DNA from: a virus
DNA length: 64,000 nucleotides
IMG/VR virus record: IMGVR_UViG_3300047499_000113
Location: 124,001 to 188,000 of that record
Direction: 5' to 3' (one strand)
Shown: positions 7,670 through 49,309 of the stretch, one piece after another
How positions within the stretch are numbered: the first letter of the stretch is position 1
Layout of the letters: each line of letters opens with the position of its first letter
Notes under the pieces: generated by a model
Seen by the model: only the letters and a program-made list of their open reading frames with translations
The model's database searches: none
Told to the model about the DNA's origin: nothing
Position numbers and translations under genes: made by a program

Positions 7670-8059
7670 GTGGACCTCGAGAAGAAACTCGAAGCCCTAC
7701 GCTCTCAGTTGGCCCAGGCCGCGCAGGCTGTCGTTGACGAGTGGGAGCAGGACGAAGAGGGCATGGACGAAGAACTTGGAGGCGGTGGCGTTTGCGACCG
7801 TGTGTCCGAGGCCATGCAAGGAGTGGTGGCCGACCAGCTCGAGGGAGTGGAATTCACCGAGGGCGGCCAACCCGGCGACGACCACGCATACTTCATCGTG
7901 TACGACGAGGACGAAGCATTCGCTGTCGACATCCCGCCAAGCGTCTACGAGACTGGCGGAGGCTACAGCTGGAAGAAGCGGCAGGACGCGCAGATCGAAC
8001 CGTCAGACGTCGTCTTCTCCGAGGTCGAGCGAGATTTGGTCGCTGACTGGGAAGACTAG
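7670..8059 (+). CDS. Acidic conserved protein of unknown function
   Basis: 129 residues, start GTG. The N-terminal third is a predicted helix rich in Glu and Gln (EKKLEALRSQLAQAAQAVV) followed by an acidic stretch; the rest holds the phrases GGVCDRVSEAMQGV, GDDHAYFIVY and VDIPPSVYETGGGYSW. I recall similar blocks in uncharacterised bacterial proteins, with conserved DDHA and VDIPP..YE.GGGY, but no function. It is a plus-strand gene inside a minus-strand virion block, which suggests an accessory insertion. It overlaps the next, convergent gene by 4 bases. No Shine-Dalgarno is present; the start is supported by the TAGTCT element at 7659. Confidence 0.8.
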   Translation: MDLEKKLEALRSQLAQAAQAVVDEWEQDEEGMDEELGGGGVCDRVSEAMQGVVADQLEGVEFTEGGQPGDDHAYFIVYDEDEAFAVDIPPSVYETGGGYSWKKRQDAQIEPSDVVFSEVERDLVADWED

Positions 8060-8298
8060 GGATCGAAGCAGAGCTGCTTCATGTCCATGACGTTCTTCGC
8101 GTATTCACTGGCTTTCACCAAAGCCTTGCCCGAGTAGTAGTCTTCCCTCAACTGTTTGAGGGAACCGCCCGGGTTGGTGAACACGAAGAAAACGCGAGCC
8201 CCCTGCTTGCGCCTATTCTGCATGTGGCATCCAGCCAGCTTCAGATACGCGGCCAAGTAGATGTCGTGGGTCTCAAACTTCTCTTCAAGTTCCGGCAT
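8056..8298 (-). CDS. DUF5659-like small protein
   Basis: 80 residues. The pattern THDIYLAAYLKLAGC, then RVFFVFTN, then LREDYYSGKALVKASEYA matches what I remember of DUF5659, a short family in phages and bacteria with no assigned function: an 'F.T.DlyLAafL' opening, an 'FvFe' strand and an 'yyng...v.p..f...ik.lk' ending. It may act as a small regulatory or DNA-associated protein, but nothing in the sequence proves this. It converges with the plus-strand gene ending at 8059 and sits between two virion genes. Confidence 0.8.
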   Translation of the reverse strand: MPELEEKFETHDIYLAAYLKLAGCHMQNRRKQGARVFFVFTNPGGSLKQLREDYYSGKALVKASEYAKNVMDMKQLCFDP

Positions 8299-8363
8299 TT
8301 GGGTCTCAGTATGCGTCTGCGTTTCCGCACACTCTACTGAGTGAAGGGTCCCAAATGCACAGA

Positions 8364-8392
8364 CGCCCTCGCTGGAGGAGACAGCGAGGGCG
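8364..8392 (-). terminator. Hairpin after the 422-residue virion gene
   Basis: A perfect 10-bp GC-rich stem (cgccctcgct with agcgagggcg) with a 9-base loop lies 11 bases beyond the stop at 8404. It lacks a clear T tract, so it may be a weak terminator or an mRNA-end stabiliser. Confidence 0.55.
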
Positions 8393-8403
8393 CCGGATGC
8401 CGC

Positions 8404-9672
8404 TTACAGCGTGTAAGCGGTGTGCCCGTCGTCTTCGGTGATGAAGACCGCCGGACCTGCAGCGTAACCGAGGCGAGCCGTCGCGCCCTCGTTCGCGCCG
8501 AAGGGCGACTGGTACGGGGTTTGGGCCGGGTAACCGGGCTGGAAGTAGGACGCCGAGAGCAGCGAGAGCTTGCCCTTGGCGAACGACAGGAGCACCGGAC
8601 CCGTCTCGATGAGCTGCGGCGCGATGGCGTTCTGGATGGCCGTCGCGAGCGCGAGGAACGCACCGCTCGGCGTCGAGGCCGAGTAGCCCGTCATGTTCGC
8701 GAAGGTCGACAGGGCGCCGATCTGCGAATACGAGATGTTGAAGGACAGCGTCTCCTCGGTCCAGCCGAGCGCCGTATCCACCAGCGCCGCCGGGTTGTAG
8801 ATGACAACCGACGTTGGCGAGATGTACTGGACGATCTGCCACGTGCCGTCGTTGGAGGCGTGAGTGCCGCCCGTCAGCACCAGGTAGTGCAGCGTCGAGT
8901 TGGCCGTCATGCCCGTGAGGCCCGTGATGACCGCGGTGCCGTTGGTGCCGACCGAAGCCACGGCTGCAGCGGCGCCAGTTTGGCCCGCGATGGCCGTGAA
9001 CTGGTAGACGCCGGCGTTGGCCGAGGTGCCGATGAGCGACGAGGTGCCCGCCGCACCATTCGCCACGGGCAGACCGGACAGAGCCGACGTCGAAACGCCG
9101 AGAGCTGTCGCGAGCGTGCCGCCGAGGTGCATGTACGCGGTCGGACCCGAGTTGAGCGCGCTGACGAAGGGCGCCGGAGGCTGCGGCGACACACCCAGCG
9201 GCGGCTGAGGAACGCCGGCGTACGTCGAGGAGAACGACGCCGTCACGCTGGCGCCTGGCGCCACCGTGTTGATGCCGATCTGGCCCGAGTGCGGATCCGT
9301 GGAACCCTGCACGATCGCCGTCAGCGACTGCGCGAGCCCGTTGGCCGCGAACGCCGCGTTGAGGGCCACGGCCAGCTGCGCCGCCGTGTACGTCCCCGTC
9401 GCGATCGTCATGGTGATCGTGGGACCGCCAGACTGCACGATGGCCGTCAGGGTGTTGTTGGCACCCGTGAGCGTCAGCGGAAACGTGGCGCTGTTGCCCG
9501 GGTTGCTCAGGAACGCGTACTGATTCAGTACGCTGGTGAGCGTGGTGTTCGAGGGGAACTCGAAGTACCGGCTCTGTCCCGGCGGTTGCGAGGAGAAGTT
9601 CCTCTGCGAGGTATTCTCCACGTCGTCGAGGTAGATCCTCGAGAGGTCTTGGCGGATGAGTCCAACGCGCAT
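8404..9672 (-). CDS. Putative virion structural protein, Ala/Thr/Ser-rich
   Basis: 422 residues. The opening (MRVGLIRQDLSRIYLDDVEN) is followed by a long region rich in Ala, Thr, Gly and Ser with many predicted beta strands, including TFPLTLTGANNTLTAIV and a stretch around residues 235-265 reading TAIAGQTGAAAAVASV. It has no Cys, no signal peptide and no catalytic motif, which is typical of phage appendage proteins. The start has a good Shine-Dalgarno (GAGGAG) about 8 bases upstream. It heads a run of secreted-like beta proteins with the genes at 9717 and 10355. Likely a tail or decoration protein; no family recognised. Confidence 0.75.
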   Translation of the reverse strand: MRVGLIRQDLSRIYLDDVENTSQRNFSSQPPGQSRYFEFPSNTTLTSVLNQYAFLSNPGNSATFPLTLTGANNTLTAIVQSGGPTITMTIATGTYTAAQLAVALNAAFAANGLAQSLTAIVQGSTDPHSGQIGINTVAPGASVTASFSSTYAGVPQPPLGVSPQPPAPFVSALNSGPTAYMHLGGTLATALGVSTSALSGLPVANGAAGTSSLIGTSANAGVYQFTAIAGQTGAAAAVASVGTNGTAVITGLTGMTANSTLHYLVLTGGTHASNDGTWQIVQYISPTSVVIYNPAALVDTALGWTEETLSFNISYSQIGALSTFANMTGYSASTPSGAFLALATAIQNAIAPQLIETGPVLLSFAKGKLSLLSASYFQPGYPAQTPYQSPFGANEGATARLGYAAGPAVFITEDDGHTAYTL

Positions 9673-9716
9673 TGTCTTCTCCTCAAACTCCTGTGCTCAT
9701 CAAAGCGTGAAGATGC

Positions 9717-10316
9717 TCAGGTCACCGTGAACACGTTGCTGAGCTTCGAATTGCTCTGGACCTGAACCATCCAGCCCGCCACGACTGGCCCACCCGTCAC
9801 CAGTGTGTTCGGCAGGACGATCGATGCGGCTGCGATGGTGCCGCCGCCTCCAGTGATGGCGGTGTCCTTGATCGTCTGCTTGGCACCGCTGAGGTTCGTC
9901 AGGATGACGTAGGTGTGGTCCGGCGTGAGCGACAGGAACGTCGCACCCGAGGCAGGACCCGAAATCGTGGTGTCGCCCACCGGCGTGTTGTGCACAGCGC
10001 CCGTGATCGAAGGACCGGCCGAAAGTCCGCCAGCGTGGGTGAAGAAGCTGACGTAGCCTTTCGCGGCGAGCTTGGTGATCACTCCGTGCGGAAGCTGCGA
10101 CTGGAGCCTGACCTCGTCCGATGGAACGAGGTCGAGATAGCCCGGCACAGTCGGATCGATGGGGTTGACGTACGGGACATAGACCGCCTGCTTCGGCGTC
10201 TGCGCGTACGTGAGATCGGTCTCGAACTGGCCCGAGGTCCGGTCGATCTTGTCGAGCAGGATGTCTCGCGGCAGCACCTGCGAGTTGATGACCCTGACGT
10301 ATGCCGGCGTTTGCAT
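9717..10316 (-). CDS. Putative virion structural protein
   Basis: 199 residues, rich in Thr, Val, Gly and Pro, with alternating hydrophobic strands (for example TYVILTNLSG and GWMVQVQSNS). The start is supported by AGGAGA 6-7 bases upstream. It lies between two other probable virion proteins on the same strand with short gaps, so co-expression is likely. No Cys, no transmembrane segment and no enzymatic motif. A beta-sandwich accessory virion protein is inferred; I do not recognise a family. Confidence 0.75.
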   Translation of the reverse strand: MQTPAYVRVINSQVLPRDILLDKIDRTSGQFETDLTYAQTPKQAVYVPYVNPIDPTVPGYLDLVPSDEVRLQSQLPHGVITKLAAKGYVSFFTHAGGLSAGPSITGAVHNTPVGDTTISGPASGATFLSLTPDHTYVILTNLSGAKQTIKDTAITGGGGTIAAASIVLPNTLVTGGPVVAGWMVQVQSNSKLSNVFTVT

Positions 10317-10354
10317 GCCTGTCTCCTACTTGACTGAAGTCGATAAAAGCTGCA

Positions 10355-11098
10355 TCAGTGCATCGGGTCGTTTCGCTGGGAGCCGATGAAGTTGAAGGGA
10401 ACCGAGGCGCCATTGCCACGAACGAAGAGTTGCGACACAGCCGGGTAAGTCGTCACCAGGTTCACGAAATCGCTCGAAAGTGTGGGGACTTGGAACTCCG
10501 GGCCCGTAGGCTCGAATGCCACGTACAGGATCGCACCGCCGTTGTTCTGGATCTGGACGTTGTTGACCTGGCAAGGCAGCTGGATCTCGAGTGAGCCGGA
10601 AAGAGCCCCCGCGTTCGGAGCACTTCCGCTGAGAAGGATCGGTCGATTGGGTGCAATTGGATACGGCAAGATAAGCATCCCGGACTCGGCCGTATTGGTC
10701 GTGCCGTCCAGATTGACCTGCTGAACGCGAAGCCAGAACGGCGTGGAGTCGCTCACACCCACGGTCGAGAAAACCGTGTTGACTTTGCCGCCTGTCATAT
10801 AGTCGGTCGGAGCGAACCTGAATCGCGTCAGATACGGCTGTCGACTCTGACTGAACTGCTCAGAGTCGCCCATGATGTTCTGCATGCCCTGCACGCTCGG
10901 CGAGGCATAGCCACCAGACACGGGCATGTTCTGGAACGTCGTGTATGCCCCATCGAAATTGGCAGCAACCTGAAAGTTGTACGAGGCCGCGTTCGCACGC
11001 GACTCCGGACTGGTCGGGGTCGTGGCATTCGGGCCCGACGTCAAGTTGATGTCGACCAGATTCGGGCGACGCCTATAGAGCGACAGATACCGTGCCAT
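10355..11098 (-). CDS. Putative virion structural protein
   Basis: 247 residues starting MARYLSLYRRRPNLVDINL. The centre (FWLRVQQVNLDGT) looks like a fibronectin/Ig-type strand pattern and the C-terminal third (GAILYVAFEPTGPEFQVP, then SQLFVRGNG) is beta-rich. It continues the minus-strand virion run; 25 bases separate it from the upstream collagen-like gene. The ATG is the end of a perfect 7-bp hairpin (11097-11114), so translation may depend on opening that stem. Function not assigned. Confidence 0.75.
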   Translation of the reverse strand: MARYLSLYRRRPNLVDINLTSGPNATTPTSPESRANAASYNFQVAANFDGAYTTFQNMPVSGGYASPSVQGMQNIMGDSEQFSQSRQPYLTRFRFAPTDYMTGGKVNTVFSTVGVSDSTPFWLRVQQVNLDGTTNTAESGMLILPYPIAPNRPILLSGSAPNAGALSGSLEIQLPCQVNNVQIQNNGGAILYVAFEPTGPEFQVPTLSSDFVNLVTTYPAVSQLFVRGNGASVPFNFIGSQRNDPMH

Positions 11099-11114
11099 CG
11101 CTCGGATGAGCGAT
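11097..11114 (-). promoter_or_regulatory. Hairpin overlapping the start codon of the 247-residue gene
   Basis: On the minus strand ATCGCTC pairs with GAGCGAT around a 4-base loop (ATCC). The final AT of the stem belongs to the ATG. This is the same geometry as at 7618, 16106 and 61769. Confidence 0.5.
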
Positions 11115-11123
11115 AAAAAGCCG

Positions 11124-12176
11124 CTATGGAAGGTCGTACACGGTCATCACGATATATTCGTACGGATTGCTGCCAGAGTTGATGCTCACGGTAGCTGGGG
11201 TGACCGTCGTCTGCTGCCACTGGAGCTGGATCGTATGGGAGGTTCCAGGCGTGTTGGCGATCACTTGGGCCCCGCTCAAGCTCTGCGATACACCAGCGTA
11301 ATCGGTCGTGCCAGTCGCGAGGATCTTCGTCTGCGTGGCCCCGTCGAGCGAGAATCCCACCGTTGCACCGTTCTGCACGGCGTCGGAATCGTACGAATAA
11401 TCGACTTGCACCAAAATACGGGTCCCGTTGAAAGTCTGAGTCGTCGTCATCCCGCCCAGGTCCGCCAGGGGTGCATGGGACGCGAGTTGGTAGTCGAACC
11501 CGGTCGCGACCGTGTAAACGGCAAGTACCCCGCCACCATTCGTACCTGCGGGACCAGTCGGACCTTGCGGACCAGTCGGACCTTGCGGCCCACCAGAAGG
11601 ACCAGTCGGACCTTGCGGCCCTACCGGTCCTGTAGCTCCTTGAGGTCCTGTAGCTCCATTTATGCCCGCAGGACCCGTTGCGCCTTGGGGTCCAGTCAAG
11701 CCATCGACGCCAGCCGGTCCAGTCGAACCCTGGGGGCCGGTAGTGCCATCAGCACCAGTCGGTCCCTGAGGGCCTGTTGCACTAGGACCGGTTGCTCCCG
11801 CAGGACCCACAGGACCTTGGGGGCCGATGGGACCCTGAGGACCGAAACCAGGAGGTCCCTGAGGACCGGGCGGGCCTATAGGACCAATGGGTCCAGGCGG
11901 GCCCGGAACGAACTGCACAGGCGCGGCCGAGCCCTGGGCCACCAGCTGAGCGGTGAAGGAATAGGTGAATTGTCCCGGGCTCTGATTGGCACCCGTCAGA
12001 ACGATGTTTGTGATGAACGTATTCGGCGCGTTGAGCTGCGAGTAGACTGCAGCCGCATTCCCAAACACGAAACCCATCGGATCGGGCAGCGCCTGATCCG
12101 ACACCACAATGATGCCGGCCGATATGACGGCCGGATTCGAACTAGGAGTCCGATTGGCGCTGATCGTGGTGCTCAC
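11124..12176 (-). CDS. Collagen-like fibre or adhesin with globular ends
   Basis: 350 residues in three parts. The N-terminal domain (1-88) is beta-rich ([13 protein letters not shown]). The collagen-like stalk (about 90-220) is Gly-X-Y, starting [17 protein letters not shown] and ending TGPAGTNG. The C-terminal domain (about 222-350) is beta-rich ([41 protein letters not shown]) and could be a trimeric jelly-roll tip like those in C1q-like or receptor-binding phage proteins. The start is GTG. The N-terminal part probably docks to the virion and the C-terminal tip may bind the host. The role is inferred from architecture. Confidence 0.85.
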
Positions 12177-12206
12177 ATCAGCACGCCGCCATAAACAGCT
12201 TGCCGC

Positions 12207-12641
12207 CTAGACGATGAGCTTGTCTTTCTTCGTCTCGGCGATCTTGGCGTCGAAGGTCGGAGCAGCCTCAAGGCCCCTGTCCTTGATGGCCTGAGACTTG
12301 GCTTCTTCCCAGGTGCCGGTCTCCTCGCCCTTGTAGTTGGGGAGTGCCTTCTTCGGCGGCCCGTACCTGTCGAGCTGGCGCTTTCCGGCGGCCTCGGCTG
12401 CCTTTTGGCGATACTGCTTGAATCTGTTGCCCTTGGACGGCCAGGAACCCGTGGGACCATCCTTCAGGACGATGTGCGGAGCGTACGGAACCCACTTGTA
12501 GTTGCAGGGGTCTCCGCACTGCACGCACGGAGGGTGCACGGCCCGCATGTCGTCCTTGATGGAGACCTCGACCTCGAAGACGGTTCGGTTTCCATCCGGG
12601 CCAAGGCACCCATCGTTGGTGCACTCGTACGTGTAGATCAT
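12207..12641 (-). CDS. FmdB-like zinc-ribbon protein
   Basis: 144 residues. The N-terminus reads MIYTYECTNDGC and later CVQCGDPC, giving two Cys pairs around a 30-residue insert, as in FmdB-type zinc ribbons that typically start 'M..YeC..CG'. After the ribbon comes KWVPYAPHIVLKDGPTGSWP and a charged, Lys/Glu-rich helical tail. Similar short zinc-ribbon proteins are common in large phages and have no firm function. The start has no Shine-Dalgarno; TAGAGT lies 5 bases upstream. It is followed on the same strand by the collagen-like gene at 11124-12176. Confidence 0.75.
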   Translation of the reverse strand: MIYTYECTNDGCLGPDGNRTVFEVEVSIKDDMRAVHPPCVQCGDPCNYKWVPYAPHIVLKDGPTGSWPSKGNRFKQYRQKAAEAAGKRQLDRYGPPKKALPNYKGEETGTWEEAKSQAIKDRGLEAAPTFDAKIAETKKDKLIV

Positions 12642-12646
12642 GGGCT

Positions 12647-12652
12647 ACTCTA
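12647..12652 (-). promoter_or_regulatory. -10-like TAGAGT, leaderless start
   Basis: TAGAGT is 5 bases before the ATG at 12641 on the minus strand, with no Shine-Dalgarno. It overlaps the end of the upstream gene. Confidence 0.35.
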
Positions 12653-14059
12653 CTGCTGCTCTTGCTGGCCCTGATCCTGGCCTTCCTCTTCCTCGGATTC
12701 CTCTTCCTCGGGCTCTTCCGGAGCCTCGTAGTCCGGGGTCTCCTCTTCCAGTTCGGAGAGGTCGACCTCGTACTCGGGCAATCCCTCTTCCTCCTCGAGA
12801 GCGTCCTTGACCGCCTCGTAATCCTCGGTCTCCTCCGGGATCTCGTAGTCGGGCTCCTCGGCGGGCGGCTCGTAGTCGGGCTCGAGTTCGGAAAGATCGA
12901 CTTCGTACTCCGGGAATTCCTCTTCCTCTTCGGCCTCGGGCTCTTCGGCGGCCTCCGGTTCGAGACCTCCCTCAGGCTCTTCCTCCCAATCGATTTCGAT
13001 CTCGGGGTCTTCCTCCTCGAGGTCCTCGATGGGAACTTCCGCTTCTCCCTCGAGCCTGTCCCAATCCTCGTCGACAACGTCGAGGATTTCGTCCGAATCC
13101 TTGTCCCAGTTCTCGTCGACGATCTCCTCCATGAAGTCGTCGAGTCGCTTGAGGACCGAGTATGCGTGCTTGCACAGGAAGTATTTCCTGTCGGGATCGC
13201 GAACGTCCGGCGGCGCGGCCGTGCCGAATGGCTGGCCGAGCATGTATGAGTTTTGCGATGCGTGGAACTCCGGGCCGTTGTAACGCCAGAACGGACAGTC
13301 ACATGAGAGCGCGACCTTGTCCACGTCCGACAGCGACGCTTGGACCACGCGAGCACCATGACCGCAGTTGACCGAGAACGTAAAGATCCGGCTCTTCTTG
13401 TCGTAGCTCGTGAGCGAAACGCGGCAGCTCTGCGCGTTGCGCTTGATCTTCTCGGGAACTCTCGGCTCGAGTTCTTCCGGCTTCATCGCCTGACGTCGTG
13501 CCCGCCAGGGAAGCTCCAGCAGGGCTACCAGCTGGATCGAGGAGTGCCGAATCGGCTTCTCCTTGGTCCTGTACGGATAGTCCCAATACTGGGTGATGTC
13601 GACATCTTCGACGAATGTCGTGTCGGTCGGGGTCTGGATGTTCTCGTCGTACTGATATTCCTGGTGGTGAGTGACCGAGTCGGCCTCGCCGTCCTTCGTG
13701 TCGAAGATCGATCCGGGTTCCGAGGACGGAATCGTGGGCTCGTTGTCCTCGTACTTGAACGTCTTGGTTCCGAACCAGTCGGCCTCGTTCTCGCCACCGT
13801 CACCGAGTGGAGTGGCACCGTCCGCAAAACGCCGGCGCGCAATCCGACTCGCCAGATGGCGTCGAGATGCAACCTGGATCGTCTCGACCTTGATCGGAAT
13901 GAGGAAGAGAGGCTTGAGATGATCCGGAATCGCCGCCGCGAACGAGATGATGTCGGGATACACCTCCTGGCAAAGGAACGCGTACTGCGCTGCCTCGCTC
14001 AGGATGAATCCGTGCGGGAAATCCTTCTTGTCGGACGCCTGCTGCGAGTTGCGGATCAT
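12650..14059 (-). CDS. SWIM zinc-finger protein with a long acidic tail
   Basis: 469 residues. Residues 1-250 form a folded region with a basic helix (HLASRIARRRFADG, about 69-82). A SWIM-type motif follows: C253-D-C255, then C296-K-H298, matching the CxCx(n)CxH pattern of a zinc-binding fold used for DNA or protein contacts. Residues 310-469 are extremely acidic and include two copies of EYEVDLSELE with similar flanks, ending in a Gln-rich tip. The ATG overlaps the stop of the 132-residue gene by 4 bases (ATGA), showing translational coupling. A virion or DNA-mimic role is possible; only the SWIM motif is firm. Confidence 0.8.
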   Translation of the reverse strand: MIRNSQQASDKKDFPHGFILSEAAQYAFLCQEVYPDIISFAAAIPDHLKPLFLIPIKVETIQVASRRHLASRIARRRFADGATPLGDGGENEADWFGTKTFKYEDNEPTIPSSEPGSIFDTKDGEADSVTHHQEYQYDENIQTPTDTTFVEDVDITQYWDYPYRTKEKPIRHSSIQLVALLELPWRARRQAMKPEELEPRVPEKIKRNAQSCRVSLTSYDKKSRIFTFSVNCGHGARVVQASLSDVDKVALSCDCPFWRYNGPEFHASQNSYMLGQPFGTAAPPDVRDPDRKYFLCKHAYSVLKRLDDFMEEIVDENWDKDSDEILDVVDEDWDRLEGEAEVPIEDLEEEDPEIEIDWEEEPEGGLEPEAAEEPEAEEEEEFPEYEVDLSELEPDYEPPAEEPDYEIPEETEDYEAVKDALEEEEGLPEYEVDLSELEEETPDYEAPEEPEEEESEEEEGQDQGQQEQQ

Positions 14060-14454
14060 TTGTCGACCTCGTAGTCGTACTCCGGGGCCGATGCCCGCTG
14101 CTGAGGAGTAGGCTGTCGCCCGGTCCTGCGCGGAGTACGGAGCCGCACGTCCTCCAGGACGCGCTCCAACTCGTCAACCTTCTCCGGCCTCAGAACTTGT
14201 CGCAGTTCTTCGTAGTCGAACTTGTCGACTGCCATGGCAGCAGCCTGGAGAGCGCGCTCGAGCTTGAGCATGCACTCTGGCACGGCATGGATGATGTCGC
14301 CCGCCACAGCGTAGAAGTGATCTCGCTGTGGCGAGGCATGCACCAAATCCAACGCTCGGACTACGTAGCTCTTGAGTTCGTCCGCACGCAGGCGAGCATC
14401 GGATAGCTCCTCCTGAATGTAGAGACTCACATGAGCCGTACGTTTGGTGCTCAT
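14056..14454 (-). CDS. Hypothetical helical protein
   Basis: 132 residues, predicted mostly helical (IQEELSDARLRADELKSYVV, then LERALQAAAMAVDKFDYEEL), with a basic Pro/Gln-rich linker (TPRRTGRQPTPQQ) and an acidic end (YDYEVDK). Coupled by 4-base overlaps to the HNH gene upstream and the SWIM gene downstream, so the three are read as one operon. The helical body could be a four-helix bundle or coiled coil. I do not recognise a family. Confidence 0.75.
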   Translation of the reverse strand: MSTKRTAHVSLYIQEELSDARLRADELKSYVVRALDLVHASPQRDHFYAVAGDIIHAVPECMLKLERALQAAAMAVDKFDYEELRQVLRPEKVDELERVLEDVRLRTPRRTGRQPTPQQRASAPEYDYEVDK

Positions 14455-14963
14455 ATTTGTCTCGATGCTCGGAGCCTGAGAATGGCGTCAACTGCTGCCT
14501 GAGCCTCTTCAGGTGTCATCCAATCAGACTTCATTCGATTGCAAAAGCCGCAGCAAGAGACAACGTTTCCGATTACATATCCGACGTTGCTGTTGAGACG
14601 ATCGAGGCCACAACCTTTCTTCACCGGCTCACCAAGTTTGCCCTTGCAATAATAGCAAGGTTGACTCACCAGAATGATATATGACTCCAGAGAGAGAGTG
14701 AATTCAAGCCCACGATCTCGAGCTACCCATTTGGCTTTCTGGTATCTTCCACGAGCTGTACCGACATACTTGTGTCGACCAGCAATAGTCGCCGGTTTTT
14801 TATTGTGGCACTCGTAGCAGACATTGCTTCTTCCGTCCTTAAGACGCTTGTTTGGCCGGAAAAGCGCAAGCGGTTTGTCGAGACCACACTTGATGCAGTT
14901 TTTAGCTCTGACTTCCTCCTCGGGAGCCATAGGCATCAACTGATGAACAGTCGCCTCCGCCAT
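14451..14963 (-). CDS. HNH endonuclease
   Basis: 170 residues. An N-terminal zinc knuckle (CIKCGLDKP with CYECHNKKP) is followed by a linker and the HNH-type core CYYCKGKLGEP, GLDRLNSNVGYVIGNVV, CCGFCNRMKSDW. This has the zinc-binding Cys pairs plus the D-R, GN and CN positions typical of free-standing phage HNH nucleases. Such enzymes nick or cut DNA; many are selfish homing genes and others assist packaging. The local sequence is clearly more AT-rich than its neighbours, which suggests recent arrival. The gene overlaps the next gene by 4 bases. Confidence 0.85.
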   Translation of the reverse strand: MAEATVHQLMPMAPEEEVRAKNCIKCGLDKPLALFRPNKRLKDGRSNVCYECHNKKPATIAGRHKYVGTARGRYQKAKWVARDRGLEFTLSLESYIILVSQPCYYCKGKLGEPVKKGCGLDRLNSNVGYVIGNVVSCCGFCNRMKSDWMTPEEAQAAVDAILRLRASRQI

Positions 14964-15003
14964 TTCGGTTTAGGCGGCCCATCAAAGTCTTGGGGCCGCC
15001 CAA

Positions 15004-16107
15004 TCAGGCGCCGAACTGCTTGGGATACGTCTTCTCGAGCATCTTGCGCATCTGGTCGCCCTCGGCGGCATAGAGAGCCTCGAGGAACTGCTGGGATGCG
15101 CCGTGCTTCTTGACGGCATCCATGCGGTCCTTGAGCTTGCCCGTGAAAGACCAATCCGCCGGGAAGTCCGGGTCGATGCGCCGGGCCATGCGGATCTTGG
15201 GCGGCAGCTTCGTGTCGATCTTGACGTCCTTGGACGTCGCCTTCACGGTCTTGCCGTTCTTGGCCGCGGCGCGCTCCGCACGGATGTTGCTTGTGTCGGC
15301 GACGCTCACGCCCTCGGCGTTGCCCATACCCCTCGAGGAATGGCGCACCTTGCCGACGACCGTGCCCTCGTTCTCGTCCCCGATCTCGACAGGGGCATTG
15401 CGGTTCATCCTGCTGGTCGTGCGGATGTTGATGCCCTCCTGCTCGGTCTCTTCGTACTGCTGACGAAGCGGAATGGCACCCGACCCGGCGATGTTGTCGA
15501 GCCGATGCTTGAGCTGCGATGCCCCAGCCGACGTCATGTCGATCTTGCCAGCATTGGCCGGCGTACGCAGGCGCGCGACAGGCGTGTAGTCCTGCTCCTC
15601 GATAGCGCCCGGATTGACGACCAGGCCGCTCGACTTCCAGCCGGTCTTCTTGGGCTGCGGCCGATTGGCGGAGGTGATCACGCGCGGTTGCGCCCGGATG
15701 TTGCGGCCACCGGGGTTGTGCATGTCGGCCCGAGCCTCGGGGCGCCTGTCGGACACGTGCATCACCGTGTCCTCGTCCATACTGTCGGTCTCCATCGAGT
15801 TGGCCTCGTGGCGCTGCACGCGTTGGAGATCCGTGTTCTTCGTCTGCGACTTGGCCACCTGGCGCGACGGCACCACCGCAGCCACGTGACCATCGATCTC
15901 GGCCTCGTCGTCGGTGAACCACCCTTGGTTGACGGACGACCGGAGGCTCGGGCCGATGGGGAGGTCCATCCCGGCGTATTTGAGCAGAGTCCCGTCGTAC
16001 TGGACCTGTTCACCCTTGTCGATGGTGACGCTGTGTGGGCCACCAAGACGAATCTTCATCTTGGCGTAAAGGGTGACGAAATCGTTGCGTTGCCAACGGA
16101 TGTCCAT
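15004..16107 (-). CDS. Putative virion protein of unknown function
   Basis: 367 residues. The first 45 residues form a compact region (RWQRNDFVTLYAKMKIRLGG, then VQYDGTLLKYAGM). The middle is long, charged and probably disordered, rich in Asn, Glu, Arg and Thr. The C-terminal 65 residues are helical (KIRMARRIDPDFPADW, FLEALYAAEGDQMRKML). It has a mapped-looking 5' leader: TACAAT at 16134-16139, then a hairpin that exposes AAGGAG in its loop and buries the ATG. This is the first gene of the minus-strand run below 16 kb and may head a late operon. Function not recognised. Confidence 0.75.
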   Translation of the reverse strand: MDIRWQRNDFVTLYAKMKIRLGGPHSVTIDKGEQVQYDGTLLKYAGMDLPIGPSLRSSVNQGWFTDDEAEIDGHVAAVVPSRQVAKSQTKNTDLQRVQRHEANSMETDSMDEDTVMHVSDRRPEARADMHNPGGRNIRAQPRVITSANRPQPKKTGWKSSGLVVNPGAIEEQDYTPVARLRTPANAGKIDMTSAGASQLKHRLDNIAGSGAIPLRQQYEETEQEGINIRTTSRMNRNAPVEIGDENEGTVVGKVRHSSRGMGNAEGVSVADTSNIRAERAAAKNGKTVKATSKDVKIDTKLPPKIRMARRIDPDFPADWSFTGKLKDRMDAVKKHGASQQFLEALYAAEGDQMRKMLEKTYPKQFGA

Positions 16108-16170: not shown

Positions 16171-16593
16171 CTACCGAATAACCCGGCGGGGCGGCGCGCT
16201 GGTCACCACGTCCTGGTCCGATTCCTGCGGCTTCTTCGTGCCTGGCTCGCGCCGAAGTTCCGTGATGAACTCATCGACATCATGCTTGAGGCTGCGCAGA
16301 GCGGGGACGAGCTTGTCGGGCTCCTCGGTCTTGCGCACGAACTTCATCGCTTCCTCGACGTCCTTGCCCTCGTCGGTGTCCCAAATCGACAGCTCGACGT
16401 CATCGGCGGCGATGGAAAGTATTTCTCGAGCGACGCGCTCGATGCGCTGCTGACGACACAGCGCCGAAGCGAGGAGCTTCAGGTCTTGGCGGACGAGGGT
16501 GTTGCTGGGCTGCTCACTGGCGTCGATCTTGGTTGCAATTCGACGCAGAATAGAGGCTACCTTGTCCGGCGCGAGCATACTTCCCTGGGGCAT
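16171..16593 (-). CDS. Hypothetical helical protein
   Basis: 140 residues, predicted helical. The early segment DKVASILRRIATKIDASEQP resembles the recurrent IAxRVA-like motif found in several proteins of this phage. Later segments are acidic (DDVELSIWDTDEGKDVEEAM) and end in a basic disordered tail (APPRRVIR). It starts at ATG 16593; an internal ATG five codons later has a better Shine-Dalgarno (AGGGAAG) and is an alternative start. A T-rich run follows the stop. Function unknown. Confidence 0.7.
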   Translation of the reverse strand: MPQGSMLAPDKVASILRRIATKIDASEQPSNTLVRQDLKLLASALCRQQRIERVAREILSIAADDVELSIWDTDEGKDVEEAMKFVRKTEEPDKLVPALRSLKHDVDEFITELRREPGTKKPQESDQDVVTSAPPRRVIR

Positions 16594-16638: not shown

Positions 16639-18636
16639 ATGCGGAAGCGTTTCTTCAAGTTCACAATCGGGGCGGTTCTATTCGTGATGCTCCTGTTCGT
16701 GGGCTTGTGGTTGGTAGCCCCCGTTTTCGCCAAGAACAAGGCAATCGAGCGGGCCCAAGCGATGGGCCTGACAATGACTGTGAACTCCGTGAATCACTCG
16801 GACGGCGGTTACCTGTTCGAAGGGATTCACATCAGCTCCAAAGAGCTGCCCATCGAAGCCGACATCGATCAAGCGATGGCGATTGTCGATGGATCGAAGC
16901 TGCGCGCTCTGACCGTCCACGGTGGGAAGGTCGTCGTCCACGGGAGAGTGTCCGAAGTCCGCGGTCAGTGGCAATCGTGGCGAGACAAACACCACGGCAA
17001 TGGCAGTGGTGAGAAGGCCGTCATTATGGCCGACAAACTCCAGCTCACGTGGCAGGCACCATGTGGCGGAGACGATGCTTCTGCTACAGGCGTTTCGGTC
17101 AACAACACGGACCTGGTCGTGCAAGCGAGCGATGTAACCGCAAGTTGCCTCGGGTGGAAAGCCCACTCCACTGACGTGAAGGCATCTTTGCAGAGTGTGG
17201 AAATCGGCAAGCTCGAGATTACGCGTTCCGGAGCAACAGGGCCAGCAACCACGTCACCCAGGAACCTCGACACCAGAGAGTTCCCCGTGCAGGGGTCCAT
17301 TCCAAACCTGGTCGTCAGAGAGCTGAACGTCGACGACAAGCCCCACACGCTCCACGCGAAGAACCTTGTGTTCCGCGGCGATTCCGACTCTGGCGACACG
17401 GCGTACACGAAGTTCTCCTTCGACGAGATGGAGGCTGACCTTCCGAAGGTTCACAAAGTGAGTCTCGGGAAGACTGGGACCGAGGGCTGGCTGAGTGACT
17501 TGTCGTCCGGCGGATACGCGCTCTTCTCCTTCACCGTGAAGTCGGATGGAGCCCGCGGCAAAGTGCAAGGCGTCACAGGCAATCGGGTGACCCTAGGGAC
17601 AACGGAGTTGGTCCTCGCAGGAAGCCTGCCTCCGGATTCTACGTGGAAGTCACCGCATGTTCTCTTCGACGAGAGAACCCACGTGAAAGTGGAAGAGGTG
17701 CAGGTCAACTTCAAGGGTGAGTGGAAACCCGGTCGACTGCAAGCTGACGTAGAACTCCCCGACACGGACTGCCAGAAACTCCTTGACGCGGTTCCAGCGG
17801 GAATGAACCGAGCCATCATGGGTTTGAAGATGAAGGGCTCGGCGGAAATGCAGCTCCACGTCGAGAAAGACGACAACCTCGCCGAACCCGTCGTGAAGCT
17901 CCACCTGTTCGATCACTGCAAGGTCACGAGTCCGCCGGATGGGGCTGACCGAGCCACACTGCGATCGAGCTTCATGCGTGTAGTGCAAGGCCCGATGGGA
18001 GAGGGTGTCGAAATCCCTACGGGACCAAGCTCAGGCAAATGGATGCCGCTGGGCGATATGTCACCCTTCCTCGTCGATGCCATCCAAGTGACGGAGGACC
18101 CGGGCTTCTTCGGTCACTACGGATTCGAGCCGTCCGCCATCGAGAACTCGCTCAAGACGGACATTTCGCTCGGTAGGTTCGCACGGGGCGCGAGCACGGT
18201 CACCATGCAGCTCGCCAAAAACCTGTGGTTGTCGCGCGAGAAGACCATCGCCAGGAAGATCCAGGAAGCCTTCCTCACCATCTACCTCGAGCAGACGCTC
18301 TCCAAGCAAGAGATTCTGGAGACGTACTTCAACGTCGTCGAGTTTGGACCGATGGTGTACGGCATCACGGACGCGGCCAACTTCTACTTCAATACTATTC
18401 CGTCCAACCTCACACTCTCGCAGGCGCTCTTCCTGTGCTCGATTCTACCCAACCCCAAGCAGAATTGGTTCGGGGCAGACGGGCAGCTGCAACCAGGTCG
18501 GCTCAAGTGGCTACAGACGCTCATGGTCGCACTCGAGCACCGTCATCTCATCACGCAGACGCAGTATGAAGAGGGCGTGACCGAGATTCCCGTTCGAGGA
18601 ATGCCGAAGCCGGCGCGTGCACTAGCGCTTGAATGA
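16639..18636 (+). CDS. Membrane-anchored peptidoglycan glycosyltransferase (GT51)
   Basis: 665 residues. A short basic N-terminus and one transmembrane helix (about 8-30, AVLFVMLLFVGLWLV) are followed by about 430 residues of AsmA-like beta repeats. The C-terminal GT51 domain (about 475-640) polymerises lipid II into glycan strands. Its motifs are present: TEDPGFFGHYG with catalytic E486; GASTVTMQLAKNLW; RKIQEAFLTIYLE with the second catalytic Glu E543; KQEILETYFNVVEFG. There is no transpeptidase domain, so it is monofunctional. The layout (helix, AsmA-like region, GT51) is one I associate with Myxococcota. Start ATG 16639 has GAGG 7 bases upstream. Plus-strand gene in an accessory block; probably host-derived. 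Phage-encoded lysins are common, but a synthetic enzyme is not. Confidence 0.9.
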   Translation: MRKRFFKFTIGAVLFVMLLFVGLWLVAPVFAKNKAIERAQAMGLTMTVNSVNHSDGGYLFEGIHISSKELPIEADIDQAMAIVDGSKLRALTVHGGKVVVHGRVSEVRGQWQSWRDKHHGNGSGEKAVIMADKLQLTWQAPCGGDDASATGVSVNNTDLVVQASDVTASCLGWKAHSTDVKASLQSVEIGKLEITRSGATGPATTSPRNLDTREFPVQGSIPNLVVRELNVDDKPHTLHAKNLVFRGDSDSGDTAYTKFSFDEMEADLPKVHKVSLGKTGTEGWLSDLSSGGYALFSFTVKSDGARGKVQGVTGNRVTLGTTELVLAGSLPPDSTWKSPHVLFDERTHVKVEEVQVNFKGEWKPGRLQADVELPDTDCQKLLDAVPAGMNRAIMGLKMKGSAEMQLHVEKDDNLAEPVVKLHLFDHCKVTSPPDGADRATLRSSFMRVVQGPMGEGVEIPTGPSSGKWMPLGDMSPFLVDAIQVTEDPGFFGHYGFEPSAIENSLKTDISLGRFARGASTVTMQLAKNLWLSREKTIARKIQEAFLTIYLEQTLSKQEILETYFNVVEFGPMVYGITDAANFYFNTIPSNLTLSQALFLCSILPNPKQNWFGADGQLQPGRLKWLQTLMVALEHRHLITQTQYEEGVTEIPVRGMPKPARALALE

Positions 18637-19317
18637 GATCTTGCTCGGCTCCTTCGCATCCTCGATGAGACTATCGAGGTATGGAAGAACGTCCTTGTTG
18701 GGCGCGAGCTTGAAGGGACCGAGCCACTTCACCTCGGCATCGTCGAGCTTCTGGATCGACTCGTCCAGATTCAGAGGGTCGACCTTCGAAATGTCGAGGA
18801 ATCCGACCTCCGTAGGGTCGGCGAGCCGCTGCCGTTCCGGCAGGAACATATTTTCGGGACCGCTCGTGAAATGGATGGCCCGGAAGACGAACGTCCAGCG
18901 AGTATTCTTCGGCACCGGATAACCAGTGCGCATCTGGAATGCAACGCTGTGGCGCGAGATCGACTTGTCGAAATCGGGCATCAGCGCGAACGCGTAGCGC
19001 TTGTTCTTCTGCCGCAGGTGAAAGTGGAACCACTCGGTGGGCTTACCCTCGGCCCACATTTTGAGGTGCTCGACGATGTTGTCCGCATCCTTCATCAGGA
19101 AGACGGGTCGCATCTCGTAGTCGGTGTCCGACTTGACGTTGTGCTTGAACCAGAGACAAGCCTCGGCGGCTCCGCTCGGAAGCTGATCGAGGCCCTCCAT
19201 CAGCTCCGCGGTCCGCTCGGGCGGGATGAGCTGCATTGGGTCTCCCACCAGCAAGGGAACGTAGCTGATGAGGACGATGGACATCCCGGGCGACTTCTCG
19301 TCCTTGGGCTTACTCAC
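18622..19317 (-). CDS. Hypothetical protein
   Basis: 231 residues, start GTG. Visible segments are SIVLISYVPLLVGDPMQLIP, EWFHFHLRQKNKRYAFALMP, RWTFVFRAIHFTSGPENMF and a helical end. No signal peptide; single-domain alpha/beta composition. It lies directly downstream of the VWA gene on the same strand and its end overlaps the convergent GT51 gene by 15 bases. The start has TACTTT 5 bases upstream and the same 11-base sequence precedes the KptA gene start. I do not recognise a family. Confidence 0.75.
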   Translation of the reverse strand: MSKPKDEKSPGMSIVLISYVPLLVGDPMQLIPPERTAELMEGLDQLPSGAAEACLWFKHNVKSDTDYEMRPVFLMKDADNIVEHLKMWAEGKPTEWFHFHLRQKNKRYAFALMPDFDKSISRHSVAFQMRTGYPVPKNTRWTFVFRAIHFTSGPENMFLPERQRLADPTEVGFLDISKVDPLNLDESIQKLDDAEVKWLGPFKLAPNKDVLPYLDSLIEDAKEPSKISFKR

Positions 19318-19355: not shown

Positions 19356-20471
19356 TCAGGCCGCTTCTTCGGACTTGTCCCAATCCGGCACCTCGTACAG
19401 GAGCCTCGTGCCGGCGACCAGGGAGCGATTGGCCGAGGTCGACTGAACGAAGACCGCGTACTTCTCGAAACTCACCGGCTTGAGCTTCACGTCCTCCCGG
19501 TCTTCACCCTTGCGCTCGCTCTGCGGAGGAAGCTCGAGCATTTCGCGCACTTTGGCGCCGTTGAAGATGTCGCCCGTGGACTTGTCCATGAGCACGATCT
19601 CCTTGAAGCCCTGAACGGTCTCGGCCTTCGTCAGCTCGTAAAATCCGCGACCCTTGCGGAACTCGACGCCCTGATCGCGGACGAAGTCGGCGATGCCCTG
19701 CTTCTTGTCGACGGGCAGGATTTGGAACCTGCCGGCCGGAACCGCATGCAGCGAGGCGTCGCCGGCGGCGAACGCGGGCTTGCGACCCAGCAAGATCGAG
19801 ATGATCTTGTCCAGGTTGCGGTTCATGCGCTTGTCTTCCTTCAGCTCCTTCTCGAAGCCCTGGAGCTGCTCGTCGCCACCCTGCTTGTAGCAGACGGCCA
19901 TGATGAGGTCGTTGATGGTCGCGAACTGGTCGAGCGTCAGGTAGAATCCGCCAGTCTTCTTGGCGATCTCCTCGTAGAAGCTCTTGGAGTGCTTGCGGCA
20001 GCCCGGCATCGCGTGGACGCCGTAGACGTTGATGCCCGCCTCGAGCAGGAGTCCCAGCTCGTTGCGCCAGTCGATCTTCTTCTTGTTGTCCGGATACGTC
20101 GGTCCGTGCGGGACGTCGTCGCCGATCATCACCAGGACCTTCGACTTGCCCGAGGTCCACTTGAGAGTGCGCGCCTGGTGGAGCACCAGCTCGTAGCACT
20201 CCGGGGAGTCCCCTCCGCCCGTGGGCTCCACCTTGTCGATGAAAGACGTGACCTTCTTCACGTCGTCCGTCAGATCGAGGATCTTGGTGACGTACGAACT
20301 TCCAGCGTCGCAGTAGTCACCGTGAGCGATGACTCCCATCCGGAGCCCTTCGATGTCTCCGAAAAGCCGCTTGGCGGTGTCTTTGCAGTTTCGCCTCACC
20401 TGAGTGAGGCATGGGTACATAGACCCCGTGGTGTCGAACGTCAGGACCACATCGATCGAGGATTTGCCCAT
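19356..20471 (-). CDS. von Willebrand factor A (VWA) domain protein
   Basis: 371 residues from ATG 20471, chosen because GGGAG lies 8 bases upstream. The VWA domain is at about 5-205: DVVLTFDTTGSM carries the MIDAS metal site (D13-T-T-G-S17), EPTGGGDSPE supplies the second metal loop and KVLVMIGDDVPHG the third. VWA domains bind a divalent metal and mediate protein-protein contacts. The C-terminal half (about 215-371) is mixed alpha/beta with no known motif. The protein has no signal peptide, so it acts inside the cell. The Shine-Dalgarno is buried in a hairpin (20478-20498). Partner unknown; the 231-residue gene just downstream is a candidate. Confidence 0.85.
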   Translation of the reverse strand: MGKSSIDVVLTFDTTGSMYPCLTQVRRNCKDTAKRLFGDIEGLRMGVIAHGDYCDAGSSYVTKILDLTDDVKKVTSFIDKVEPTGGGDSPECYELVLHQARTLKWTSGKSKVLVMIGDDVPHGPTYPDNKKKIDWRNELGLLLEAGINVYGVHAMPGCRKHSKSFYEEIAKKTGGFYLTLDQFATINDLIMAVCYKQGGDEQLQGFEKELKEDKRMNRNLDKIISILLGRKPAFAAGDASLHAVPAGRFQILPVDKKQGIADFVRDQGVEFRKGRGFYELTKAETVQGFKEIVLMDKSTGDIFNGAKVREMLELPPQSERKGEDREDVKLKPVSFEKYAVFVQSTSANRSLVAGTRLLYEVPDWDKSEEAA

Positions 20472-20519: not shown

Positions 20520-21290
20520 CTACGCATTCGGGGCGGCCTGGGGAGCGATGTAGGCGCTGATATCCACGCCCGAAGAGTGGGCTCCCGTGGCCAGCTGGAT
20601 GGCCGTCGAACGCGCCGTGTCAGGGTCCATGCCCTGCGTCCGAAGGAAAATATAGAGGTTGAGCCAAGCCCCGTCCGCGTGACCGAAGTAGTGGTGCGCG
20701 TAGATCCCCGGCGCCAGGCTATTGCATGGCGCGTACGGACCCATCACTAGGGTGTTGCCGTTCAGGCCGCGAAATGTGAGGGGAATAGTCAGGTTGGACG
20801 CCGGCGTCAGCATCCAGAGTACCAGCTTGAAAACTGACTCTGCTTGCTCCGGTGTAGGGACCAGGTACTTGCCGCCGGCTGCCCAAGGAGCGTTGGTGAT
20901 GATGTCCTTCCACGGACTATTCTTGGGAGCCAAGCTGGGTTCGTAAGGGTTGACAGTCTCTATTCCGACTGACGGGCCATTGTGCTGGCTCCCATGCCAC
21001 AGCTCATCGGTCAGCAAATCCCCGTGCTGGTAGATGGTGCCGTCGTAGTCGGCGATGAAGTGGACACCGAGCCCACGGCCGCCAGGATTCGACGGCGACG
21101 ACGGCATCAGGACTTGTACGGTCTCTTGCCAACTCGACGTAACAGTCTCGTGCACCACCGCTTCGGTCACGGGACCAGTACGTTTCTGGTTGACGAACCT
21201 GTAGACCGAGGGGTCGGTGAAGTTCTTCAGGCGCACACCATCGGGCCCCTCGAGCGCAACCCCGTTGACGATGACACCAGCAGCAACCAT
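20520..21290 (-). CDS. N-acetylmuramoyl-L-alanine amidase (Amidase_2), probable endolysin
   Basis: 256 residues from ATG 21290; a longer reading would run into the divergent gene and is not supported. The Amidase_2/PGRP fold cuts the bond between muramic acid and the stem peptide. AVVHETVTSSW gives zinc ligand H47; GVHFIADYDGTIYQHGDL and LWHGSQHNGPSVGIETVNPY are the classic middle motifs; GIYAHHYFGHADGAW near residue 200 supplies the remaining ligand candidates (H199/H200, D206). The C-terminal 40 residues may be a small helical add-on. No clear signal peptide, so release probably needs a holin, none of which I could identify. It is divergent from the 2H phosphoesterase gene. Confidence 0.85.
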   Translation of the reverse strand: MVAAGVIVNGVALEGPDGVRLKNFTDPSVYRFVNQKRTGPVTEAVVHETVTSSWQETVQVLMPSSPSNPGGRGLGVHFIADYDGTIYQHGDLLTDELWHGSQHNGPSVGIETVNPYEPSLAPKNSPWKDIITNAPWAAGGKYLVPTPEQAESVFKLVLWMLTPASNLTIPLTFRGLNGNTLVMGPYAPCNSLAPGIYAHHYFGHADGAWLNLYIFLRTQGMDPDTARSTAIQLATGAHSSGVDISAYIAPQAAPNA

Positions 21291-21332
21291 CACAGCCAAA
21301 ATGGGTATCGGACCTTTATCACGGGCGGAGAC

Positions 21333-21842
21333 GTGGCGTTCATAGGGATGCGGCTGCCATCGATCGCAGCGACCAATCTTTCGGAGATTCCCGTCCCCGG
21401 CGAAGCGACACCACTGCGTGAAATGCATGTGACGTTGGCTTTCTTGGGAAACCAAGTGCCGATGGAGCAGGTATTCCGGTCCCTCGCGTGCTGCTACCTG
21501 GTTGCGCAGGAGTACGCACCTCTCGAGCTGACTGCAGCACTGTTGATGAGCTTTCCGGCCGACCCGGAAGGGCGAATCCCGGTCATCGCTCGAATAGTGA
21601 CCCCGCAGCTCTTCGACATGAGAGCGCGTTTGGTCCAGTTGCTTGAAATGAATAAGGTGGAGTATTCCAAGCGCCACCCGCAGTACAAACCACATGTGAC
21701 GCTGTCGTACGCGCAGCAGGCAGTGCCACCGCAGAAGATCAAACCGCTACGCTGGCCGGCACAGTGGCTCACAGTGTGGGGCGGCGACGAAGCGGATCAG
21801 CTTTTCTCTGCGGAAATAGAACTCCGCGGGCAGAAACGCTGA
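21333..21842 (+). CDS. 2H phosphoesterase (LigT / 2'-5' RNA ligase-like)
   Basis: 169 residues from GTG 21333 (MAFIGMRLPS), with GGCGGAG just upstream; ATG 21348 is an alternative. The two defining HxT motifs are present: MHVTLAFLG (H32, T34) and PHVTLSYAQ (H121, T123). Family members open 2',3'-cyclic phosphates or cut 2'-5' bonds; relatives include CPDase, which opens ADP-ribose 1'',2''-cyclic phosphate, and the anti-CBASS enzyme Acb1. The substrate cannot be read from the sequence. KptA, which makes that cyclic phosphate, lies 3.4 kb away. Divergent from the amidase gene, spacing 42 bases. Confidence 0.85.
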   Translation: MAFIGMRLPSIAATNLSEIPVPGEATPLREMHVTLAFLGNQVPMEQVFRSLACCYLVAQEYAPLELTAALLMSFPADPEGRIPVIARIVTPQLFDMRARLVQLLEMNKVEYSKRHPQYKPHVTLSYAQQAVPPQKIKPLRWPAQWLTVWGGDEADQLFSAEIELRGQKR

Positions 21843-32190: not shown

Positions 32191-33081
32191 TCAGCGCGCG
32201 ACGATCAGGCGCACCAGGCCGCGGGGGTTGTACGCCCCGATGCCAAGGTTCTCGAACATTGAGAAACCTATTGTCCGCTCCTCGGGGTTGTCGGCCGAGA
32301 GAACCGTCAGCTCCGTGCGGACCGGGATGCGACCGAAGTGCTCCGGCTCACACGTGATGTAGACGACGCCGGCGGCGACGAGGCGGCTGACGATGAACTG
32401 GGCGTTCCAGCCCGTCGCCATCATGCCCGTCTTCCACAGCGTGGCCTGGCTCTCGATGTCGAGCACGTCGCGCCCGAACTTGCGGATGTCCGCGTAGTCG
32501 GTCGCGTTCATGTAGACGCGAGCGACGCGGAGGTCCTGCCGCTCGATCTCGGCGAACGCGTCCGCGAGAACGGCCGGAGAGATCGGAGCGATGACGGGGA
32601 CGTCGGGGTTGGTCTGCCCCGGCAGCTCGTCGAAGCCGTTGACGGCGAGCGCGTCCATGATGGAGAAGACGCGGTCGTCTTCTGCCGCCTGGACCTGCGC
32701 CTTGCCGAGGTCCTGCATACGCTTGAGGAGGTCGTACCGACGCTCCTTGATCTGCGTGAGCGGGGCCTTGGGCAGGGCGGCGATCTCGAAGAGCGGGAAG
32801 ATCACGCGCCGCGGCTTCATGACCGCGGTGATGCTCTCGCCCTCCTCACCGATGACGTACGCGGTGACATCCGGATCCTTGTCGTAGATCGGGAGAGCAC
32901 CGTCGGGCAGCTGCTCGACCAGGAAGGTCTTGCGACCCACGGACGAGTAGTCGCGCCGCTCGCGGAGCGGCTGGATCATGGACGCCGCGAGGCGCTTGCG
33001 ACCAGCCGAAGAGCCGATGAACTTGTCGACGACCTGCTCCTTGATCGTGTTGTCGACAACCTGAACGCCGAAGGGATTCAT
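32191..33081 (-). CDS. Probable major capsid protein (HK97-like)
   Basis: 296 residues. The N-terminal 45 residues are helical, then VEQLPDGALPIYDKDPDVTA, GEEGESITAVMKPRRVIFPL, LTQIKERRYDLLKRMQDL and the C-terminal ITCEPEHFGRIPVRTELTVL. This pattern matches the compact capsid proteins of some phages, where the 'LPxGA.p.YdkD.dv.AYvigeeG' block precedes the spine helix. Gene order supports it: portal, protease, scaffold-like, decoration-like, then this gene. It assembles the icosahedral head; the N-terminus may be trimmed by the prohead protease. A decoration role for this protein and capsid for the neighbour is the main alternative. Confidence 0.7.
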   Translation of the reverse strand: MNPFGVQVVDNTIKEQVVDKFIGSSAGRKRLAASMIQPLRERRDYSSVGRKTFLVEQLPDGALPIYDKDPDVTAYVIGEEGESITAVMKPRRVIFPLFEIAALPKAPLTQIKERRYDLLKRMQDLGKAQVQAAEDDRVFSIMDALAVNGFDELPGQTNPDVPVIAPISPAVLADAFAEIERQDLRVARVYMNATDYADIRKFGRDVLDIESQATLWKTGMMATGWNAQFIVSRLVAAGVVYITCEPEHFGRIPVRTELTVLSADNPEERTIGFSMFENLGIGAYNPRGLVRLIVAR

Positions 33082-48707: not shown

Positions 48708-48709
48708 GA

Positions 48710-49309
48710 TTACACCGCTTCCGAAATGCGCTTCTCCCACTCGGCCATGTCAGCCTCTATCTGTCGAAAGACCAGGTCGATGTCGTTGTCGGCAACGCCG
48801 GCTTTCTGCATGGCCTCGTGAATGAACTCGAGCCATTGGTGGATGACCTTCTTGAACTCCGGGCTCCTGAAGTCCATCCGCTCTTGGCGGTTGTTCTCCT
48901 GGCGCTTGAGAAGCACATCGGCCAGGTTCCGGAGCATGGAGATGCGGGCGATAGTGTGCTGGACGGTGGGCTTGCCCTCCTTGGTAGCCTTGCGACGTTC
49001 GAATTTGAGGTGGGCGAGTTCTTCAGTGATCTCCTGGATGGCCAGTTCGATCATCTCGCCAGTGGCGCCACGGCGCGTAGCCGCTTGCACCAGTTCCTGG
49101 CGCCTGACGTAGTCCTCGCGCTCCCGAAGCTCCTGCTCGGCTGCTTTCGGGTCGATGACTTCCGGGGTCGGAACGTTCCCGCTCGGGCCGACGATGACCC
49201 CGCTCATGCCGATTTCGCCGGTGTTGATCTTCTTCCCACCGGGGAGGACGAGAAGTTTGCCTTTAGGCTCGTCCTTCTTGTCTTTGTCCTTGTCCTCGGT
49301 GTCGTCCAT
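48710..49309 (-). CDS. Possible terminase small subunit
   Basis: 199 residues directly upstream of TerL. A charged N-terminus with a Gly-rich stretch (GGKKINTGEIGMSGVIVGP), then mainly helical (ELVQAATRRGATGEMIELAI; HTIARISMLRNLADVLLKRQ). Small terminases are helical, oligomeric and located here; sequence similarity is not visible, so the call rests on position. TAAAGT lies 6 bases before the ATG. Confidence 0.55.
   Translation of the reverse strand: MDDTEDKDKDKKDEPKGKLLVLPGGKKINTGEIGMSGVIVGPSGNVPTPEVIDPKAAEQELREREDYVRRQELVQAATRRGATGEMIELAIQEITEELAHLKFERRKATKEGKPTVQHTIARISMLRNLADVLLKRQENNRQERMDFRSPEFKKVIHQWLEFIHEAMQKAGVADNDIDLVFRQIEADMAEWEKRISEAV

Follow-up and report, generated by a model that had tools for sequence, protein, structure and literature searches.

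The gene under study lies on the plus strand at positions 16639..18636 of the window (the whole 64,000-nucleotide stretch of DNA analysed here, which corresponds to bases 124001-188000 of a 240,015-bp virus record from a tailed phage). It starts with ATG, is closely preceded by a GAGG ribosome-site-like sequence and encodes a protein of 665 residues; a search for a promoter motif upstream of the gene gave none that is convincing. From the N-terminus, the protein comprises a single membrane helix, a long stretch of beta strands and finally a GT51 peptidoglycan glycosyltransferase domain (residues 465-608; 18031..18462, plus strand), the latter matched over exactly these residues by the Pfam Transgly profile (PF00912) with an E-value of 2.1e-45 and 154.8 bits against a cut-off of 27. 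The GT51 motif residues GxST, QxxKN, RKxxE and ExYxN are all present, as are both catalytic glutamates, Glu486 in motif I (EDPGFF; codon 18094..18096, plus strand) and Glu543 in RKIQE (codon 18265..18267, plus strand), which a first-pass annotation of the DNA had noticed in an apparently intact domain and whose numbering proved correct on re-reading. Sequence matches in the PDB are to class A penicillin-binding proteins (PBPs) and to the Staphylococcus aureus monofunctional glycosyltransferase, and Foldseek matched the predicted structure best to the moenomycin-bound peptidoglycan glycosyltransferase of Aquifex (3nb6; TM-score of 0.83 by target length), placing the domain in the lysozyme-like alpha-helical glycosyltransferase fold.

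Class A PBPs (PBP1A, PBP1B, PBP1C and PBP2) thus share with the window protein a homologous GT51 domain with the same motifs, but the extra region of the window protein is N-terminal to this domain rather than C-terminal; Pfam detects no transpeptidase domain, and PBP models match over the GT51 part only. In having one membrane helix and GT51 as its only enzymatic domain, with no transpeptidase, the protein resembles the monofunctional enzymes MtgA and SgtB (TIGR02070), yet it scores 138.3 bits against the TIGR02070 equivalog, under the cut-off of 182.65, carries about 440 additional residues between helix and GT51 domain and occupies a separate branch in the tree (see below).

The transmembrane helix noticed in the first-pass annotation is predicted at residues about 8-30 (16660..16728, plus strand; hydropathy peak 2.7) and is preceded by basic residues, and a hydrophobic N-terminal stretch recurs in every relative with a complete N-terminus. 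The same annotation had called the region that follows AsmA-like. In an AlphaFold model of the window protein (23-row alignment, mean pLDDT 78), a helix at residues 2-41 is followed by consecutive beta strands to about residue 460 and then by the helical GT51 domain, and a model of the distant relative L041 (pLDDT 88) has the same layout. The beta region (residues about 42-450; 16762..17988, plus strand) gave weaker Foldseek matches, with low TM-scores, to the repeating-beta-groove proteins LPD-3, LptD, LptC and Atg2. No AsmA or DUF748 sequence profile matched significantly (DUF748 reached E 0.022 over 50 residues, below the Pfam cut-off). "AsmA-like" is therefore retained here as a structural description, since the models are consistent with a groove layout and a profile match is absent. 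With AsmA, TamB, YhdP and YdbH the window protein shares a membrane helix at its N-terminus and, as far as the models predict, the long beta-groove behind it; it differs from them in carrying an enzyme at its C-terminus and in the lack of a significant AsmA match at the sequence level. Lipid binding is one possible role of the groove, which may otherwise serve as a spacer that holds the enzyme off its anchor.

The window also encodes, on the minus strand, a major head protein (32191..33081; phrog_2522, 2.7e-46), a portal protein (44178..45971; phrog_16240, 2e-26) and a terminase large subunit (46758..48740; phrog_2, 3.3e-26), and the rest of the 240,015-bp record has matches to a baseplate wedge protein and a replicative helicase. 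The possibility that the contig joins phage and bacterial DNA at 16-19 kb, raised in the first-pass annotation, was examined and no such junction was found. Caution is due here, since most public "phage" records that match GT51 contain bacterial DNA filed under the wrong label. However, IMG/VR contains a second contig, 3300049255_000272, with 100% identity to the window over 21,995 bp comprising the GT51 gene and 10 kb on each side, and thus crosses both junctions; it may come from a related sample and therefore counts as a second contig rather than an independent population. Moreover, GT51 genes fill this slot in divergent phages as well, and among the 81 genes of at least 300 codons the GT51 gene ranks 30th from the bottom in GC3 and 14th from the bottom in coding score, within the range of this genome. 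No close bacterial relative was detected in a peptide scan of 84,980 prokaryote species genomes in which exact short peptide matches were required. With a second contig spanning both junctions identically and the slot recurring in divergent phages, bacterial contamination or an assembly chimera is excluded for practical purposes, and it is virtually certain that a phage carries this GT51 homologue.

Scanning IMG/VR with profiles from the window protein and from one neighbouring core gene, we found relatives on 41 further contigs in addition to the window and its identical twin, 24 of them longer than 200 kb and the largest measuring 618,736 bp (near-duplicates among the 41 are L024/L025, L029/L030, L021/L022, L042/L043 and L034/L035). 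A terminase match is present on the same contig in 23 GT51 contigs, counting the twin, with three of these matches being weak. One further candidate, L045, was dropped from the family as it is PBP1A-like and lies on an 8.6-kb contig. With such a gene on some forty other phage contigs, most of them giant, the family is established among phages and not a one-off.

In a search of 50,697 deposited phage records, no convincing member appeared among the matches listed (40 of 56 and 12 of 46), which look like bacterial DNA. The "mtgA" of Microcystis phage MaAM05 was rejected as a phage relative, as it encodes a class A PBP and lies among the bacterial genes secDF, glyS, fabI and engB, and GT51 genes in human-gut "Bacteriophage sp." records and in Listeria, Salmonella and Acinetobacter "phage" records were likewise taken as bacterial DNA; two GT51 proteins from such mislabelled records served as Bacteroidota-like references. 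MW495066.1 and the "Bacteriophage sp." MT83xxxx records are filed as phage and apparently contain bacterial DNA with housekeeping genes and class A PBPs, which can mislead annotation based on database matches. PHROGs holds no dedicated family for the window protein, the only hit being a weak partial match to phrog_33002 (unknown function). No description of a phage GT51 was found in the literature, jumbo- and huge-phage papers included, in a search that covered few subscription journals and no preprints; one paper mentions "peptidoglycan biosynthesis" genes in large phages in passages that name none (PMC10732071).

The GT51 gene occupies a recurrent slot. A conserved block of genes, g97-g106 (8056..16107, minus strand), flanks it in a set of phages that we refer to as group 1 (the window phage, L018, L019, L021, L023, L070, L071, L072, L080 and L092), and in these the GT51 gene lies just past the block on the opposite strand. 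In the window, g107, a small protein of unknown function, is encoded divergently from the GT51 gene (16171..16593, minus strand), and on the other side the 3' end of g109 (18622..19317, minus strand; unknown) overlaps the GT51 3' end by 15 bp. Beyond g109 lie g110, a von Willebrand factor A (vWA) domain protein (19356..20471, minus strand; Pfam VWA 2.5e-7), and g111, an endolysin-like N-acetylmuramoyl-L-alanine amidase (20520..21428, minus strand; Pfam Amidase_2 1.5e-9), the endolysin previously noticed in this region. The block itself encodes a SWIM zinc-finger protein (12650-14059, minus strand) that is present in all cassette-bearing phages at 45-68% identity and has almost no counterpart in deposited phage records, making it a good marker for this huge-phage lineage; its homologue in L087 (G002:C1:217856-219217) contains one in-frame TGA within the match, which may reflect a frameshift, recoding or an over-extended alignment.

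We located the block at 17 loci, 11 of which have a GT51 gene nearby and 6 of which do not. No GT51 gene is found anywhere on the cassette-bearing contigs G244 (393 kb), G029 (193 kb) and G030 (85 kb); the other three loci without GT51 lie on contigs of 29-72 kb. The GT51 gene is thus not essential, because several cassette-bearing phages, including that of the 393-kb contig, lack it. On G030, g112 follows g106 within about 200 bp, where the window has g107, the GT51 gene, g109, the vWA protein and the amidase. In L105 (72% identical) and L093 (55% identical), an amidase occupies this slot near g106 without GT51. Relatives of g107 lie near the slot in several phages including L091, which lacks GT51, and relatives of g109 occur in L018 and L093. 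In L071, GT51 and amidase genes are adjacent. L091 is the closest phage by major head protein (98% identical), and the absence of GT51 at its locus, on a contig of only 28.6 kb, implies that gain or loss of the gene can be rapid. Divergence of GT51 nevertheless correlates with that of the flanking cassette (r 0.49-0.66, permutation p 0.0015-0.0045), a pattern consistent with inheritance over long periods, punctuated by gains and losses. L079 has a group-1 cassette, yet its GT51 gene branches with a second group of phages and has another orientation, which suggests replacement.

In this second group (group 2) the neighbours differ from those of group 1. Genes for vWA proteins lie upstream of GT51 in L026, L039, L073 and L074, either adjacent or one gene away, and proteins with peptidoglycan-binding domains are encoded near GT51 in L040, L076, L077 and L078. 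We regard the link of GT51 with hydrolases and vWA proteins as a noticed association. Upstream of the window, the same genome carries a sugar cluster (L010:6222-14347; G000 106222-114347) encoding an FkbM methyltransferase, GT1/GT2/GT4 glycosyltransferases and a GDP-mannose dehydratase. In L020 and L070, genes related to these lie directly beside GT51; in the window genome the cluster is about 26 kb away.

Twelve residues are invariant in all 36 phage proteins aligned: E486, D487, G517, S519, T520, Q524, N528, R539, K540, E543, Y563 and G575, both catalytic glutamates among them. The region before the GT51 domain contains two further invariant positions, Cys378 (codon 17770..17772, plus strand) and Cys427 (codon 17917..17919, plus strand), which are conserved in 36/36 phage proteins and in 0/3 Bacteroidota homologues; the pair, predicted to lie in the periplasm, may form a disulfide. 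The dN/dS ratio is 0.16 for L031/L034, and for L076/L077 it is 0.07 in the GT51 domain versus 0.29 in the rest of the protein, with synonymous sites near saturation. GT51 is the most constrained part of the protein and the best conserved in sequence, and the groove varies in length and sequence. Because the catalytic residues are invariant and selection is purifying, the protein is probably a working enzyme that is under selection.

To place the family, we built a tree with bacterial MtgA, PBP1A, PBP1C and Bacteroidota proteins as references, a thin sampling of bacteria. The beta-groove-GT51 proteins form one clade (support 100/97) comprising 36 phage and 3 Bacteroidota rows. The phage rows require two label changes, since L075 groups with Bacteroidota at weak support (82/77), and L044 forms a long branch. 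A topology with all phage proteins in one clade, within the Bacteroidota beta-groove-GT51 proteins or next to them, is not rejected (AU p 0.33). The nearest phage relatives are only about 31-33% identical to the window protein over the full length. Bacteroidota proteins annotated as "biosynthetic peptidoglycan transglycosylase" (WP_121956505.1 of Parabacteroides distasonis; the gut fragments L015 and L016) share its length (about 655 residues), its layout and its clade, with L015 and L016 being 25-29% identical over the full length, but they do not have the Cys pair and their gene neighbours are bacterial, not phage. Bacteroidota therefore provide the nearest bacterial architecture found under this thin sampling. 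Acquisition from a myxobacterium, proposed in the first-pass annotation, finds no support, as the clade is almost wholly phage and the scan of 84,980 genomes gave no close relative, although myxobacteria, outside the direct sampling, may still be an old source. A comparison with 196 relatives of a Bacilli genome yielded 0 matches at E 1e-60 and is uninformative on the donor. Thus, the enzyme class and, in Bacteroidota, the layout are known, and the new finding is a branch of GT51 in phages that is broad and apparently old.

GT51 enzymes polymerise lipid II on the outer face of the inner membrane, using two glutamates, and are blocked by moenomycin. By homology to this family, the window protein would be an inner-membrane-anchored GT51 that faces the periplasm behind an AsmA-like beta-groove and converts lipid II into glycan strands; the bulk of the protein should be periplasmic because a single N-terminal helix is preceded by basic residues. 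Cross-linking would be left to host enzymes, and must come from the host since the protein has no transpeptidase. Judging from gene context and phage size, the enzyme would be made during infection and would either sustain wall synthesis or act on the sacculus by thickening or repairing it as host synthesis declines, so holding the cell intact through a long infection until phage hydrolases lyse it. That the enzyme is active is likely, whereas its role in wall maintenance is a tentative proposal. It is the role that we favour because the enzyme looks active, is constrained, is concentrated on large phage contigs and twice lies beside a phage amidase; against it, several cassette-bearing phages do without the gene, the neighbours differ between phage groups and uncross-linked glycan could equally harm the wall. 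The explanation as a whole, a membrane-anchored lipid II polymerase without transpeptidase that keeps or rebuilds the host wall in infection, is plausible but still somewhat short of an even bet when judged from sequence and models.

The missing transpeptidase and the amidase next door in two phages would also suit an offensive role, in which an active GT51 uses up lipid II and deposits glycan without cross-links, so that host wall synthesis is derailed and takeover or lysis becomes easier. The means by which phages are known to disrupt wall synthesis are small inhibitors, beside which an envelope enzyme of 550-700 residues with a conserved groove would be costly, and we consider this role unlikely. 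Rather less likely still is superinfection exclusion, whereby new glycan or the groove changes the periplasm and thereby bars a second phage from entering by injection or hydrolysis: a surface-sugar cluster is present in the same phage and abuts GT51 in L020 and L070, but its distance in the window genome and the catalytic nature of the conserved residues, needless for plain steric exclusion, argue against it. It is also improbable that the protein works mainly through its groove, in lipid transfer or in the lipid homeostasis of the envelope, and that GT51 is secondary or regulatory. Both models do contain about 440 residues of beta-groove, with Foldseek likeness to lipid-transfer proteins and the invariant Cys pair within, but it is GT51 that is most constrained and best conserved, whereas the groove is variable. 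A catalytically dead decoy or inhibitor of host glycosyltransferases is very improbable because the catalytic residues are conserved in 36/36 proteins, and the tested catalytic and motif residues are intact in all or nearly all of these divergent proteins.

Phages are known for wall-cutting enzymes (endolysins) and for small inhibitors of wall synthesis. Endolysins and tail lysozymes are likewise phage gene products acting on peptidoglycan, but they cleave where GT51 polymerises. A conserved, apparently wall-building phage gene thus points to an unstudied need of giant phages, candidates being that the cell is held together through a long infection, that entry damage is repaired or that rivals are shut out. 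The defined active-site residues, the natural presence/absence pairs at one slot and the specific inhibitor moenomycin make the role directly testable. Extending wall maintenance to the whole family, we speculate that the Cys-pair-marked proteins may represent an old huge-phage wall-building lineage in which a groove module serves a GT51 polymerase and the virus re-walls the infected cell, a class of function undescribed so far; this broader view is more doubtful than not.

Several further genes were observed around the locus. An HNH/endonuclease VII-like gene (14451-14963, minus strand) lies between g104 and g106; it was not seen at this position in most relatives, has a distant relative nearby in L023 and is probably a homing endonuclease. 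Past the amidase gene, a 2'-5' RNA ligase/Acb1-like protein, possibly acting against CBASS, is encoded at 21423-21842 (plus strand), and about a dozen of the related phages encode relatives of it close to their GT51 gene. At the other end, two giant collagen-like repeat proteins (1,567 and 2,295 residues, by gene calls) occupy window positions 1-5935 (minus strand) and run on upstream.
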